This document shows, piece by piece, positions 22,255-35,823 of a stretch of DNA of 54,188 nucleotides. Location of the stretch: assembly GCF_014696345.1 (NCBI RefSeq), contig NZ_JACJPY010000022.1, positions 1 to 54,188 of the forward strand, given 5' to 3'. The notes under the pieces were generated by a model, which saw only the letters and a program-made list of their open reading frames with translations, was not told the origin of the DNA and did not search any database. The DNA is from Pseudanabaena cinerea FACHB-1277. Lineage in GTDB: Bacteria > Cyanobacteriota > Cyanobacteriia > Pseudanabaenales > Pseudanabaenaceae. Made by a program: the position numbers and the translations under genes. Position 1 is the first letter of the stretch, and each line of letters opens with the position of its first letter.

Positions 22255-23049
22255 ATGAATTTAGCAACCCTTCCTCGGACTTCGGTTGATCTTGAGTTAA
22301 TCACCTTACCAAATCAAGATCAACTTCCCTATGAAGACGGAGAAACGATGGAGACTCAGCGCCATAAAATGCAAATGGATCTGCTAATTGAAGGATTAGA
22401 TCCTTGGTTGGAAAAGCGGGAAGATGGTTATGTCGGCGGAAATATGTTTATTTATTTCAGCCAAGCGCAACTTAAAAATCAAGATTTTAAAGGTCCAGAT
22501 TTTTTTGCAGTCACTGGAGTTTCTAAGAAAGAGCGTAAATCTTGGGTGGTTTGGGAAGAGGAGAAGGCTCCTGATGTGGTAATTGAGCTGCTTTCTCCAA
22601 GCACCGCAAATTTTGATAAGACTGAGAAAAAGCAGATTTATCAAAATAAAATGAGAGTCAGTGAGTTTTTTTGGTACGATCCCTTTGATTCGGAAGACTT
22701 TGCTGGATTTTCATTGAATAGTGGCACTTACCAACCGATTGTGTTTAATGAGCAAGGATGGCTGATTAGTCAATCTTTGGGGCTCGCTTTGGTGCGTTGG
22801 TCTGGGAGCTATCGTGGAGTAATGGCGGTGTGGTTGCGATGGGCAACTTTGTCGGGAGAGGTGTTACTGACAGGTCGAGAGTTAGCCGAGCAAGAGCGTG
22901 AACGGGCTGAGCAAGAGCATGAACGGGCTGAGCAAGAGCATGAACGGGCTGAACAGGAGCATGAACGGGCTGAACAGGAGCGTGAACGGGCTGATAGATT
23001 AGCACAAAAGCTGCGATCGCTTGGTGTAGATTTAGATGCTGGTATTTAG
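22255..23049 (+). CDS. Uma2 family endonuclease-like protein with repeat tail
   Basis: A 264-residue Uma2 protein. The nuclease-like core includes GPDFFAVTGVSKKERKSWVV, EEEKAPDVVIELLSPSTA and an N-K-x-x-x-Y region (YQNKMRVSEFFWYDP), matching the PD-(D/E)XK pattern of the family. The C-terminal 60 residues are a charged coiled coil made of heptads AEQEHER and end KLRSLGVDLDAG, a typical Uma2 tail. It follows the DUF3782-type gene by 14 bases, so the two are probably co-expressed. Confidence 0.9.
   Translation: MNLATLPRTSVDLELITLPNQDQLPYEDGETMETQRHKMQMDLLIEGLDPWLEKREDGYVGGNMFIYFSQAQLKNQDFKGPDFFAVTGVSKKERKSWVVWEEEKAPDVVIELLSPSTANFDKTEKKQIYQNKMRVSEFFWYDPFDSEDFAGFSLNSGTYQPIVFNEQGWLISQSLGLALVRWSGSYRGVMAVWLRWATLSGEVLLTGRELAEQERERAEQEHERAEQEHERAEQEHERAEQERERADRLAQKLRSLGVDLDAGI
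22885..22989 (+). repeat. 21-bp tandem repeat, five copies, in Uma2 tail
   Basis: Five consecutive 21-base units (consensus GCTGAGCAAGAGCATGAACG plus G), each coding AEQEHER. Small differences (CAAGAG or CAGGAG; CAT or CGT) separate the copies. Confidence 0.92.
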
Positions 23050-23086: not shown

Positions 23087-23342
23087 ATGACCACTATCCC
23101 CCAAGAAGTTTGGCAACTCATCGGAGAACTTGTCTAGGCACAAAAGGAAACCGAGCGCAAGTTTCAAGAAATTGATGGCATACCCAAGCAAAGTAGGCAA
23201 GAAGTTGATCGCCAAATCAAAGAACTAGGAAAACAAATTGGTGGATAAGGAACGCATCCTCAAGGAAGGATTGTATGTAGCCCGTATTCATGACGAAATA
23301 TTTGTAATTGATACTCCTAATGATCTTCAACCTAGGCACTGA
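23087..23342 (+). pseudogene. decayed DUF3782-type nuclease gene, internally deleted
   Basis: Closely related to the intact gene at 33709. It opens with the same MTT(I/T)PQEVWQL(I/L)GELV, but the Gln codon after GELV is TAG (23135-23137). It then matches through KELGKQIGG, loses about 320 bases including the whole catalytic region, and resumes as KERILKEGLYVARIHDEIF to a stop at 23340. The 30 bases upstream also resemble those before 33709 (TTTAAGAT, CAATCA, AAGAT-ATGAC). This indicates a common cassette that includes 5' flanking DNA. Confidence 0.9.
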
Positions 23343-30282: not shown

Positions 30283-30391
30283 ATGACAAAGCCTCACATA
30301 TATTTATTATACAAAACCTTCAATTACGGAAATAGAAGTGGGCTATTCCACTGATGCGGCGCGTAATGGTTGGGGCGATCGCTGGTTTTAG
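30283..30391 (+). pseudogene. 5' remnant A of a DegT/DnrJ/EryC1 aminotransferase gene
   Basis: Starts MTKPHIYLLYK, then (after a one-base shift) reads KPSITEIEVGYSTDAARNGW plus GDR, the N-terminus of a PLP-dependent sugar aminotransferase of the DegT/DnrJ family. Homology to the family ends at GGCGATCGC (30374-30382), after which a stop follows at 30389. Nearly the same fragment recurs at 30948. The DUF29 gene lies between the two copies. Confidence 0.85.
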
Positions 30392-30462
30392 ATTTTAATC
30401 AGGCTAAGCTACTCACCAATAAATATGTTAGTTTTGTGTCAGAACACTTTTACAAAGTCGCA

Positions 30463-30903
30463 ATGAGTACCTTAAGTTCTTTATACCAGTCAGATTTTAA
30501 TCTCTGGCTAGAAAAAAATCTTACTCTGCTTAAAGAGAGGGGGTTTGCTCAGTTGGATGTCGATAACTTAGTAGAAGAAATAGAGGATATGGGCAACAAT
30601 CGCAAAGATGCTTTAGAAAGTAATCTTATGCGAGTTTTTCAACATCTATTAAAGTGGAAGTACCAACCGCAAAAAAGGACGAATAGCTGGAGAGCTTCAA
30701 TTACCGAACACTCATTACGCCTAAACAAAATTTTTAAGAAAAGTCCTAGCCTTAGGCGTTATTTTGAAAATGTGTATGAAGAATGCTATCAAGATGCTCG
30801 CTTGGTGGTTTCACGGGAAACGGGAATAGACATCAATATATTCCCTGAAGTTTGCCCATTCAAGTCTGATGATGTGCTTAATCCCGATTATTTGCCAGAA
30901 TAA
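30463..30903 (+). CDS. DUF29 family protein
   Basis: A 146-residue DUF29 protein, a small helical family abundant in cyanobacteria and of unknown function. Family features are LYQSDFNLWLEKNL, QLDVDNLVEEIEDMGNNRKD, HLLKWKYQPQKRTNSW and SPSLRRYFENVYEECYQDAR. I start it at ATG 30463; further upstream residues in the open frame do not look like the family. It is bracketed by two partial copies of an aminotransferase 5' end (30283 and 30948). A paralogue lies at 34560. Confidence 0.9.
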   Translation: MSTLSSLYQSDFNLWLEKNLTLLKERGFAQLDVDNLVEEIEDMGNNRKDALESNLMRVFQHLLKWKYQPQKRTNSWRASITEHSLRLNKIFKKSPSLRRYFENVYEECYQDARLVVSRETGIDINIFPEVCPFKSDDVLNPDYLPE

Positions 30904-30947: not shown

Positions 30948-31064
30948 ATGACTAAACCACGCATCTATTACACCAAACCTTCCATAACTGAGCTAGAGGT
31001 GGGCTATGCCACTGACGCAGCGCGTAATGGTTGGGGCGATCGCTTTTTATCAGGCAAACTTTAA
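30948..31064 (+). pseudogene. 5' remnant B of a DegT/DnrJ/EryC1 aminotransferase gene
   Basis: An unshifted 38-codon frame: MTKPRIYYTKPSITELEVGY, then ATDAARNGWGDR, ending soon after GGCGATCGC (31035-31043). It is the better preserved twin of the remnant at 30283. Beyond the HIP1 site both copies share only about 20 more bases, around ATCAGGC, with a small indel. The complete gene is absent from the window. The remnant stops five bases before the next start codon. Confidence 0.87.
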
Positions 31065-31902: not shown

Positions 31903-32966
31903 GACAAAACTCAAAACATCGGATTCTATATAAAGTTGAGCAGTTGCCAATTTTTCAAAATCGGATGTATGACTCAGAAATAGAAGCTAAAAACTGCCCA
32001 AAAGGAGACGTTTGTCTAATCGAAAACCTTGAAACAGGACTAGTTTATAATGAGAGCTTCATCCCTGAGTTAATGGTATACGATCAGCGTTATCAAAACG
32101 AACAAGCCGTTAGTCCCTTGTTTCAACAACATCTTAGCAGTGTTCTATCAATTATCGAAAGTACTATAGGTAAAGAAGAGATAGTAGAAGTTGGCTGTGG
32201 TAAAGGTTTCTTTTTAGAAATGCTCTTCAAAGAAGGATTTCAAGTAATTGGATTTGATCCGACTTACGAAGGTTCAAATCCTGTTATAGAAAAAAGATAT
32301 TTTACATCAGATGTTGGTATTCAAAGTAAAGGTATAATTCTGCGCCATGTTCTTGAACACATTCAAAATCCTATTGATTTCCTTTTTCAATTAAGAGACG
32401 CTAATGGAGGGCATGGGAAAGTATACATTGAAGTTCCCTGCTTTGACTGGATATGCCGTCACCGCGCTTGGTTTGATATTTTTTACGAGCATGTAAACTA
32501 TTTCCGAATATCAGATTTCTATCACATGTTTAGTGAAGTAATAGATAGTGGCAAGCTGTTTGGCAATCAATACATCTATGTTGTAGCAGAATTATCAAGC
32601 CTACAAATCCCTAAATTTGACAATTCAAGTAGTGTATATTTCCCAACTGATTTTCTGAGAAAATTAACAGATTATCAAATAGTAGAACAAGCTAAAGCAG
32701 CTATTTGGGGAGGAGCTTCAAAGGGTGTGATTTTTGCTTTACTTAAGTCTCGAATAGGCCATTTCGTAGATGTGGTTATAGACATTAATCCAGCTAAACA
32801 AAACAAATATCTTCCTTCTACAGGAATTAAAGTAAGTTCTCCTGATAAAATATTTGATTTGCTTCCTGACAAGTCAACTATTTTTGTTATGAACTCTAAT
32901 TATTTAGAAGAAATCAAAAAAACGTCCAAATATCTTTTTAATTACGTGAGCATTGATAATGAATAA
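31899..32966 (+). CDS. class I SAM methyltransferase, sugar C-methyltransferase-like layout
   Basis: A 355-residue methyltransferase. The SAM motif is EIVEVGCGKGFFLEMLF, followed by ILRHVLEHIQNP, and the C-terminal domain has AIWGGASKGVIFALL, akin to the GYGAPAKG segment of the enzyme at 26724. The N-terminal zinc cysteines are reduced to CPKGDVC. It may methylate a sugar carbon or oxygen. It overlaps both neighbours, so the SDR, this gene and the CmcI-like gene probably form one translational unit. Confidence 0.88.
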   Translation: MRQNSKHRILYKVEQLPIFQNRMYDSEIEAKNCPKGDVCLIENLETGLVYNESFIPELMVYDQRYQNEQAVSPLFQQHLSSVLSIIESTIGKEEIVEVGCGKGFFLEMLFKEGFQVIGFDPTYEGSNPVIEKRYFTSDVGIQSKGIILRHVLEHIQNPIDFLFQLRDANGGHGKVYIEVPCFDWICRHRAWFDIFYEHVNYFRISDFYHMFSEVIDSGKLFGNQYIYVVAELSSLQIPKFDNSSSVYFPTDFLRKLTDYQIVEQAKAAIWGGASKGVIFALLKSRIGHFVDVVIDINPAKQNKYLPSTGIKVSSPDKIFDLLPDKSTIFVMNSNYLEEIKKTSKYLFNYVSIDNE

Positions 32967-33663
32967 ATCTGACGATTCTAAGTTGGCAGCTATAGCAAGC
33001 TCTTTCTTAACTGCTTCTATCGAGCCCAAGTATTCCTACAACTATTCTTGGCTTGGTCGCCCTATTATTCAATATCCGCAGGATATGGTGGCAATGCAAG
33101 AATTGATCTGGAAAGTACAGCCAGATCTAATTATTGAAACTGGTATTGCTCACGGTGGATCGTTGATTTTTTCAGCTTCGATTCTTGAGCTAAATGCAAT
33201 TTGTGGCGGTTGCCAAGATGCTGAAGTATTGGGGCTAGATATTGATATTCGCGCCCACAATCGCGAAGCCATTGAAGCACACCCGATGTTTAAGCGGATT
33301 TCCATGATCCAAGGATCAAGTATTGCCCCTGAAGTTATCGAGCAGGTGAAGGCAAAGGCAGCAGGCAAGCAAAAGATTTTGGTGTGTCTGGATAGCAACC
33401 ACACTCATGATCATGTGCTAGCAGAGCTAGAGGCATATGCGCCATTAACCTCTGTGGGTAGTTATTGTGTGGTGTTTGATACTGTGATCGAAGACTTACC
33501 TGATGATATGTTTGGCGATCGCCCTTGGGGTGTGGGCAATAATCCGAAAACCGCAGTCTGGGAATACCTCAAGGCCCATCCAGAGTTTGAAATTGACAAG
33601 AGCATTCAGCACAAACTCCTGATTACGGTTGCGCCAGATGGCTATTTGAAGAGGGTCTATTAA
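32959..33663 (+). CDS. cephalosporin hydroxylase (CmcI) family, probable sugar O-methyltransferase
   Basis: A 234-residue protein of the CmcI/rhamnosyl O-methyltransferase family. Features are LGRPIIQYPQDMVAMQEL, IETGIAHGGSLIFSASI (SAM loop) and ILVCLDSNHTHDHVLAELEA, with acidic and His residues that fit a metal site. The usual role in polysaccharide loci is O-methylation of a deoxy sugar. I start at ATG 32959, overlapping the upstream stop by eight bases. Codons 186-234 are duplicated 800 bases downstream, on the other side of a nuclease gene. Confidence 0.9.
   Translation: MNKSDDSKLAAIASSFLTASIEPKYSYNYSWLGRPIIQYPQDMVAMQELIWKVQPDLIIETGIAHGGSLIFSASILELNAICGGCQDAEVLGLDIDIRAHNREAIEAHPMFKRISMIQGSSIAPEVIEQVKAKAAGKQKILVCLDSNHTHDHVLAELEAYAPLTSVGSYCVVFDTVIEDLPDDMFGDRPWGVGNNPKTAVWEYLKAHPEFEIDKSIQHKLLITVAPDGYLKRVY
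33514..33657 (+). repeat. direct repeat, left copy (3' end of the CmcI-like gene)
   Basis: This stretch, from GGCGATCGCC to the end of the CmcI-like gene, recurs at 34314-34457 at an offset of exactly 800 bases with no indel and a modest number of substitutions. The two copies bracket the nuclease gene at 33709-34314. Confidence 0.93.
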
Positions 33664-33708
33664 TTTAAGATATAACACCACATAGCGCAATCAAAAAATT
33701 AAAAGATC

Positions 33709-34314
33709 ATGACTACTACCCCCCAAGAAGTTTGGCAGCTCCTCGGAGAACTTGTCCAATCTCAAAAAGAAACCGACCGCAAGTTTCAAGAAACTGACCG
33801 CAAGTTTCAAGAAACTGACCGCATACTCAATCAAAGCAAACAAGATACCGATCGCCAAATTAAAGAACTAGGAAAACAAATTGGTGGATTAGGTAAAAAG
33901 TTTGGTAGTTTTACTGAAGGTTTAGCTTTGCCTTCAATGGAAACAATCTTGCGCGATCGCTTTGGCATGGAGATCATCAGCCCCAGTGTGCGTGCCAGTA
34001 AACAAGGGCAGCACCTAGAAATTGATGTACTTGCCTATGCTAATGGTGATATCAACACAGCCTATATTGTGGAAGTCAAAAGCCATGCAAGGGATGAAGC
34101 TATCGAACAGTTAAAAAACCTACTAGAAAGATTTCCCGTCTTTTTCCCTGAACACCAGCACAAAAAACTATATGGTATCCTTGCTGCTGTTGACCTGTCA
34201 TCTACAATGAAAGAACGCACTCTCAAGGAGGGGATATATGTTGCTAGTATTCATGATGAAGTGTTTGAACTAGATACACCTTTAGACTTTCGTCCCAAAA
34301 ACTGGCAAGTTTAG
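33709..34314 (+). CDS. PD-(D/E)XK nuclease-like protein, DUF3782 type
   Basis: A 201-residue protein. It starts MTTTPQEVWQLLGELVQSQK, continues with short coil repeats KFQETDR, and then KELGKQIGGLGKKFGSF. The C-terminal nuclease-like fold has HLEIDVLAYANGD followed by AYIVEVKSHARDE, supplying Asp and Glu-x-Lys of the PD-(D/E)XK site. A decayed copy lies at 23087-23342 and a damaged relative at 35002. Its stop codon abuts the duplicated CmcI 3' end, so the gene looks inserted between two copies of a host sequence. Function unknown. Confidence 0.88.
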   Translation: MTTTPQEVWQLLGELVQSQKETDRKFQETDRKFQETDRILNQSKQDTDRQIKELGKQIGGLGKKFGSFTEGLALPSMETILRDRFGMEIISPSVRASKQGQHLEIDVLAYANGDINTAYIVEVKSHARDEAIEQLKNLLERFPVFFPEHQHKKLYGILAAVDLSSTMKERTLKEGIYVASIHDEVFELDTPLDFRPKNWQV

Positions 34315-34517
34315 GCGATCGCCCTTGGAGTGTGGGCAATAACCTGAAACCCGCAGTCTGGGAATACCTCAAAAATCATCCAGAGTTTGAGATTGATAAG
34401 AGCATTCAGCACAAGATCCTAATTACAGTTGTGCCAGATGGCTATTTGAAGCGAGTGAAGTGTCATATCTCTGACTTGAATAGCCACAGCTTGGATGTAG
34501 GATATAATCAACAGTAA
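34314..34517 (+). pseudogene. duplicated 3' fragment of the CmcI-like gene
   Basis: It begins at GGCGATCGCC and reads in the parental frame as GDRPWSVGNNLKPAVWEYLK, then HPEFEIDKSIQHK and PDGYLKRV, matching codons 186-234 of the gene at 32959. It then runs on for about 20 foreign codons to TAA at 34515. The frame is intact and divergence is low, so the duplication appears fairly recent. There is no proper start, so it is unlikely to be functional. Confidence 0.9.
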
Positions 34518-35001: not shown

Positions 35002-35392
35002 ATGGTGGCTACAACTAACTATTAATGAGGTTTGGCAACTATTAGGCGAATTGATCCAATTGCAGAAAGAAACAAAAAGATTGCTTCAGGAGCAAAGTCA
35101 AAAAACCGATAGACAAATCCAGCAGGTTAATGAGCAAATTGGCAAACTGGGTAATCGACTAGGAGAATTTGCTGAAGGGCAAGTCCGTCCTGCCGCAGTG
35201 CATCTATTTCAAGAGAGAGGCATTGCGGTTAGGGAATTATCGGCTAATATTTCTGTTCAAGACGGGGATGAAGGCATTGAGATCGATCTGTTAGTTGTTA
35301 ATGGCTCAGAATGGTTATTCTTAATGATCTTAAATTTTAGCCAAGGGTCTGGTAGGTTAAGGCGATCGACAAACGTTTTGATAAAACTTTGA
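35002..35392 (+). pseudogene. frameshifted DUF3782-type nuclease gene
   Basis: ATG 35002 opens MVATTN and stops at once. After a frameshift the frame reads INEVWQLLGELIQLQKETKR, then IGKLGNRLGEFAEGQVRPAA and GIEIDLLVVNGSEW. The catalytic strand is displaced to another frame, which reads VILNDLKF, matching VILCELKS of the gene at 21395. Further frame changes follow, and homology fades near 35420. At least two shifts and the altered active site make it non-functional. Confidence 0.82.
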
Positions 35393-35612: not shown

Positions 35613-35823
35613 GGCACTGGTTCCGCCCAATGAGGAGCAGAAAGTCTTATTCAGCAAGGAGTGTAGGAATCTGTTGTCAAAGCTGGTTAACGTGGTTTTT
35701 GAGCAAAAAGTGCCTGTACACCCTGTTTTTGTGTTAGGTTACTGCCATACAAGATTCTTTTAATTAAAACCATAACCCTTGCTATGCTTGGCTTTTACTT
35801 CCTCACTGGGCGGAACCAGTGCC
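35613..35823. repeat. inverted-repeat element, MITE-like
   Basis: Arms at 35613-35636 (GGCACTGGTTCCGCCCAATG plus AGGA) and 35800-35823 are inverted copies with one mismatch in 24 bases, enclosing about 163 bases. Similarity continues slightly outside the arms (CATCTG and its complement). The arms resemble material I associate with dispersed cyanobacterial repeats. Size and shape suggest a non-autonomous foldback element or two nested repeat fragments. No transposase is encoded. Confidence 0.6.

Follow-up and report, generated by a model that had tools for sequence, protein, structure and literature searches.

Truncated CmcI ends behind inserted genes in cyanobacteria as putative displaced gene ends with a candidate joint at HIP1

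In this study, we describe a cyanobacterial methyltransferase-family gene, CmcI, whose 3' end recurs behind a nuclease-like gene. We observed directly the repeat, a matching arrangement with different or additional genes in four more genomes, and empty sites in relatives, and we propose, with slightly more confidence than doubt, that the structure is a displaced gene end comparable to the C-terminal displacement of rhs genes, with the new joint at a HIP1 palindrome. Incoming DNA in which a cargo gene follows a CmcI 3' end would have been joined into a resident CmcI; the full-length CmcI would now carry the incoming end and lead into the cargo, and the former CmcI end, pushed downstream, would be a 5'-truncated, unused fragment. 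The joint would fall at the HIP1 palindrome inside CmcI in each event, either because a break at HIP1 had been repaired by one-sided invasion into a donor CmcI together with end joining, or because the HIP1 of CmcI had crossed over with one located behind the cargo.

A repeat search of the window, the whole stretch of DNA analysed here (54,188 nt; a 54-kb contig of the 4.77-Mb, 179-contig genome of a Pseudanabaena-type cyanobacterium), returned a family of two ungapped forward-strand copies of 146 nt each, at 33511-33656 and 34311-34456, with a start-to-start spacing of exactly 800. Copy 1 is the in-frame 3' end of an intact RMNT_CmcI-family methyltransferase gene (32953-33663, forward strand; an ORF matching PF04989 with E 3e-102), and copy 2 is a 5'-truncated CmcI end beginning at HIP1, recovered by the repeat search, by Pfam and by a genome-wide CmcI search; a third copy was not found by genome-wide search in the window genome. 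Copy 2 alone matches Pfam RMNT_CmcI with E 1.1e-11, which excludes chance as the origin of the repeat. A preliminary description of this DNA had reported that about 140 bases of the CmcI 3' end recur downstream and flank a nuclease gene, that both copies contain GGCGATCGCC, that the stop codon of the nuclease shares its final G with the repeat, and that the copy keeps an open frame. All of this is borne out: GGCGATCGCC starts at 33514 and 34314, the nuclease-like gene lies between the two copies, the last G of its TAG stop (34312-34314) is the first G of GGCGATCGCC in copy 2, and copy 2 is open across its 47 CmcI codons, overlapped by a 61-aa ORF. The word "exact", used there for the repeat, holds for the 800 offset and the lack of indels and not for the sequence, which is identical at 128/146 positions (88%) and over no more than 22 consecutive nt. 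Nor can the event readily be called recent, as the open frame had been taken to indicate: the copies differ at 18/141 sites with dS 0.50, and the open frame is weak evidence of recency because random substitution often leaves the frame of copy 2 open (71, 56 and 48% of trials in simulations of 9, 14 and 18 substituted sites).

Between the copies, a 45-nt spacer (33664-33708, forward strand), common to the window and the relative G018, leads from CmcI to the nuclease-like gene (33709-34314, forward strand; PF12644, E 1.9e-6), which comprises a DUF3782 coiled coil and a weak NucS-like stretch, which scores far below cut-off against the model of the endonuclease NucS (E 3.4e-4). The spacer stretch including the stop codon has 37 identical positions between the window and G018 (48 versus 50 nt), an alignment that scores 22 against a best of 13.5 in 1000 shuffles, and the nuclease-like proteins share 81% identity; as spacer and nuclease are common to both genomes, the CmcI end and nuclease would together predate both insertions or have travelled as a unit. 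The gene ends two codons past the orthologues compared, at the junction of insert and fragment, where the HIP1 octamer GCGATCGC stands in the sequence (34315-34322); a sequence scan located the sole octamer within the intact CmcI gene at 33515-33522. A PADLOC search of the nuclease-like gene gave no match and a PDB search nothing usable, and the ORF list of the insert holds no methyltransferase ORF as a restriction-modification partner. A transposase was not found in the insert, where the DUF3782 gene is the sole ORF longer than 60 aa lying wholly inside, and the repeat search of the window gave no inverted pair joining the insert ends, at which the best terminal inverted match scores 7, a value without a control. 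Elsewhere in the window lie a truncated second DUF3782 gene of another subtype (35051-35392), with a longer relative in the G018 insert, a decayed DUF3782 nuclease-like remnant (23087-23339) behind the ORF at 22255-23049, and a 211-bp element (35613-35823) with 47-nt inverted arms that are 74% complementary. With 8 more copies at 100% in the same genome and diverged copies in relatives, the last looks like a young MITE-type element.

Alignment with relatives lacking the nuclease had been called for in the preliminary description, and such empty sites were found in G011 and G019, where CmcI runs directly into a glycosyltransferase gene. In G018 the order is CmcI, nuclease, an Rpn-like gene, more nuclease genes, a second, broken Rpn-like copy, the CmcI fragment and a glycosyltransferase, the last being the same gene as behind CmcI in G011 and G019. 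When G018 was compared with empty-site G011 by blastn, a first block spanned CmcI through its stop, and a second restarted exactly at GATCGCCC (9573 in G018, 8949 in G011) and continued into the glycosyltransferase. Dioxygenase-like and TylF-like methyltransferase genes separate CmcI from the fragment in G005, and HicBA-like genes do so in G350 and G395, two congeners from another family; we assume these names from sequence recognition, as we do the Rpn-like and glycosyltransferase names above and DUF2442, Uma2 and DegT below. Directly before the fragment there is thus a nuclease in the window, an Rpn-like remnant in G018, a TylF-like methyltransferase gene in G005 and a HicA-like gene in G350 and G395. 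All five fragments begin at the identical position, the GATC of HIP1, with differing upstream flanks, and it is mainly because these flanks differ that we regard the joints as independent. A single ancestral insertion with changing cargo was rejected, the five fragments as one clade giving p-AU 8e-5, though gene conversion might mask shared ancestry.

A causal role of the nuclease in the repeat is at odds with the same fragment start behind unrelated genes in G005, G350 and G395, where the CmcI 3' duplication exists with different genes, a type of finding that the preliminary description had itself listed as refuting. The nuclease is incidental, as relatives carry other genes between such copies, and as a mobile agent we rejected it as the general cause, given other cargo at the same edge; its orthologues in G010 and G006 lie among unrelated genes, and CmcI was not found in either genome.

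A CmcI match occurs in 7/26 genomes of the genus (the window genome counted). Across the class, 26/388 genomes have a match to the CmcI end, with more than one in 7 of these 26 (the window genome, G005, G018, G023, G042, G323 and G350); the second match of G323 (G323:C12), and G201, look like frameshifted genes and not fragments. In the taxonomic order of G350 the end matches in 20/388 genomes, more than once only in G350 and G395. Among the best 80 of 580 named CmcI loci, some of which end at contig ends, a downstream fragment was present in one, L075 (Chlorobiaceae), with another edge. An intact CmcI followed by dissociated 3' fragments was found in the window, G018, G005, G350, G395 and G042, which suggests, at the level of sequence, that the CmcI end may be a recurrent landing place for foreign genes. 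Fragments with apparently other edges (G042 f1 and f2, G023 and L075) were left out of the HIP1 group, as was G042 f3, which by eye appears to start at another GATC.

At locus L043 of G042, one full CmcI is followed by three fragments of a CmcI end, separated from one another by DUF2442- and Uma2-like ORFs, and in G005 a perfect hairpin of 9 bp (TTGCGAGAA/TTCTCGCAA), at L040 11527-11554, lies immediately next to the CmcI fragment. Fragments might alternatively be remnants of whole tandem CmcI genes, each being what is left of a second CmcI after deletion between HIP1 sites had removed its 5' part. HIP1-bounded deletions would fit the illegitimate recombination at HIP1 reported in the available part of PMC4390886, and G042 does have three fragments in a row, but two intact, adjacent, similar CmcI genes were not seen in any genome among the best-match loci, and the G018 fragment sits exactly at the empty-site gene end; we consider this account quite improbable.

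Full copy and fragment differ mostly at synonymous sites in the window, G018 and G005 (synonymous/nonsynonymous 11/7, 18/3 and 16/5, respectively), indicating that the copies diverged largely as working genes. A null model in which the gene is duplicated and one copy then decays gives p 0.022, 2.8e-6 and 1.5e-4 for these three, and is not rejected for G350 (10.5/11.5, thus 10.5 of 22 differences synonymous; p 0.19). The full CmcI of G018 differs from that of G011 at 11/546 sites before GATC and at 18/141 after it (Fisher p 7e-7), the mismatches closest to GATC lying at -45 and +26, and the G018 fragment differs from G011 at 17/141 sites, with a downstream sequence likewise not nearly identical. 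In a tree of CmcI ends (19 rows, including G350 and G395 and excluding L053; the G395 fragment used over 87/141 nt), the G018 fragment falls into one group with the ends from the empty sites of G011, G019 and G004 (84/86, not starred), and full copy and fragment of G018 as one clade are rejected (p-AU 0.015). Because this fragment is placed among the alleles of empty sites and apart from the full copy of its own genome, and because identity switches near HIP1, the native end of G018 was displaced by an incoming end; as far as sequence comparison reaches, the G018 fragment is shown to be of native type, with a full copy that is not its sister.

The other fragments lie nearest their own full copies in the same tree (window 90/88, G350 100/99, G395 82/77, G005 59/67), and in the window the branch of the fragment measures 0.14 versus 0.034 for the full copy. 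These sister copies with a longer fragment branch argue against displacement in the window, being what a local duplication would give, and gene conversion between copies could create sister copies and mask common descent. Local tandem duplication would involve unequal exchange between sister chromosomes, the HIP1 of CmcI crossing with a HIP1 just behind the nuclease so that CmcI end and nuclease were duplicated as one block, and later loss of the second nuclease. It gains from the orthologous nuclease gene of G018, which has GCGATCGC 19 nt past its stop, as well as from the window tree, but 11 of the 18 window differences are synonymous, against expectation under duplication followed by decay (the p of 0.022 above), the 103 nt that follow the fragment show no recognisable trace of spacer or nuclease (scores reached in 35 and 165 of 300 shuffles), and the rejected clade of full copy and fragment is a misfit in G018. 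We regard local duplication as a possible but not a probable account. For the window event, the choice lies between an outside, closely related donor and local unequal exchange at HIP1, and is made with less certainty than for the arrangement as a whole; displacement by a related allele is favoured, not strongly.

Insertion of restriction-modification genes with long target duplication has been described (Nobusato 2000, as related in the available portions of PMC1643837 and PMC3031569), and as in those cases a long direct repeat flanks the insert and is single in the empty allele; unlike them, as far as those portions go, there is no restriction-modification pair here, the cargo varies and the copies are old, divergent alleles. 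Under a nuclease-driven event of this type, a staggered cut in CmcI would duplicate the stretch from HIP1 to the stop. The direct repeat around the insert, single in empty sites, and the nuclease-like nature of the insert are as it would predict, but non-nuclease cargo stands at the same edge in G005, G350 and G395, the copies of G018 and G005 diverged mainly as functional genes, and the insert has neither a methyltransferase partner nor a PADLOC match, which together render such an event highly improbable. A reading of the repeat as nuclease-driven, recent and cleanly reversible is not supported. In form, homologous recombination could reverse the insertion; it would have to act on a repeat of 88% identity whose longest unbroken match is 22 nt, and the gene end that results would be chimeric.

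The joint reads GCGATCG in 4/5 fragments, the whole octamer being present in 2/5 (window and G018), and the G005 fragment starts with only GATCGC. Nine fragments were counted (window, G018, G005, G350 and G395 as one, three in G042, G023 and L075), and the probability of four of nine lying within 3 nt is 6.5e-5 for edges distributed uniformly along the whole gene, 1.3e-3 when they are confined to its last 250 nt and 3.3e-3 when confined to its last 180 nt. As to HIP1 on the cargo side, beyond the octamer behind the G018 nuclease, homology to hicBA elsewhere stops near the hicA stop, and at the left flank in the window nuclease flank and CmcI fit about equally by eye. The window also holds a mirror image of the CmcI pattern: a DegT aminotransferase gene, recognised from sequence comparison, is represented by two 5' remnants (30302-30383 and 30963-31044, both forward strand), which form an 82-nt direct repeat, 85% alike, flank a DUF29 gene (30370-30903, forward strand; PF01724, E 3.7e-52) whose TTG start overlaps the first remnant, and end at the same HIP1. 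That HIP1 is carried by the DegT gene in G018, G011, G019 and G004; the G005 DegT remnant extends past it, and the window ORF list has no intact DegT ORF between or beside the remnants.

Gene-remnant edges fall within 12 nt of HIP1 in 4/24 cases (six clusters; 0.72 expected, p 0.0025), four that are not independent because three are in the window and all derive from CmcI or DegT. Of 307 clustered ends of alignment blocks, 19 are no more than 5 nt from HIP1, against 6.8 expected (0/1000 shifted controls), all but one of the 19 coming from CmcI and DegT. Outside these two loci there is no excess (1/263 clustered ends within 5 nt, 6.1 expected), and HIP1 as a general breakpoint was rejected on this count. 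HIP1 is accordingly presented here as a candidate joint at particular genes, judged from sequence, its general role being unproven.

Rhs genes with their variable tips are toxin-type genes, unlike the present methyltransferase-family gene in a polysaccharide-type cluster. C-terminal displacement was described for rhs genes (Jackson 2009, PMC2935791), and, as far as the accessible part of that paper goes, the likeness is that a gene receives a new 3' end from incoming DNA, its old end being shunted downstream as a fragment, sometimes in strings of fragments, of which the three in G042 are reminiscent. In that same part, rhs tips are non-homologous and rhs core fragments vary in length, whereas here the two ends are CmcI sequences homologous to each other, and five fragments share a single first base. 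Homology-facilitated illegitimate recombination, proposed for Vibrio T6SS immunity arrays in the available text of PMC5361080, likewise combines one homologous anchor, here CmcI, with a joint without long homology; unlike in that text, the second joint here recurs at HIP1. G018 would fit such a scheme, with an identity switch inside CmcI and with cargo and fragment joined so that no CmcI sequence precedes GATC.

We know of no settled function of HIP1. It has been associated with site-specific plasmid recombination in PCC 7002 and with illegitimate recombination (Akiyama 1998 and Robinson 1997, as cited in the accessible part of PMC4390886), and in S. elongatus HIP1 lies in two porin genes ahead of an inversion, with a plasmid fusion with HIP1 also proposed (PMC9239245, in part). 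The CmcI joints resemble these cases, so far as the two sources are available, in having GCGATCGC or GGCGATCGCC at or near the joint; unlike the plasmids, cloned sequences and one inversion covered there, they concern the acquisition of genes in the chromosome, at a single gene and in several lineages. In the literature searched, which was that outside subscription, we noticed no description of CmcI ends being displaced or of joints of this type at HIP1.

It is conceivable, though we hold it unlikely, that HIP1 is an active recombination joint by which cyanobacteria would acquire genes downstream of chosen genes while keeping the latter intact: cargo bringing an extra gene end would enter at HIP1, the full gene would be restored and the old end left, and CmcI in surface-polysaccharide clusters would be a standing landing place. 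Displaced gene ends have previously been described, in the parts of the literature available to us, for rhs and T6SS effector genes, and the gene concerned here is of a biosynthetic type. The nuclease adjoining the repeat need not be the agent behind it. With five fragments, four kinds of gene and one HIP1 base, the CmcI locus offers a concrete, testable locus for HIP1 function, and its fragments offer a means of reading how polysaccharide clusters of cyanobacteria acquire genes.
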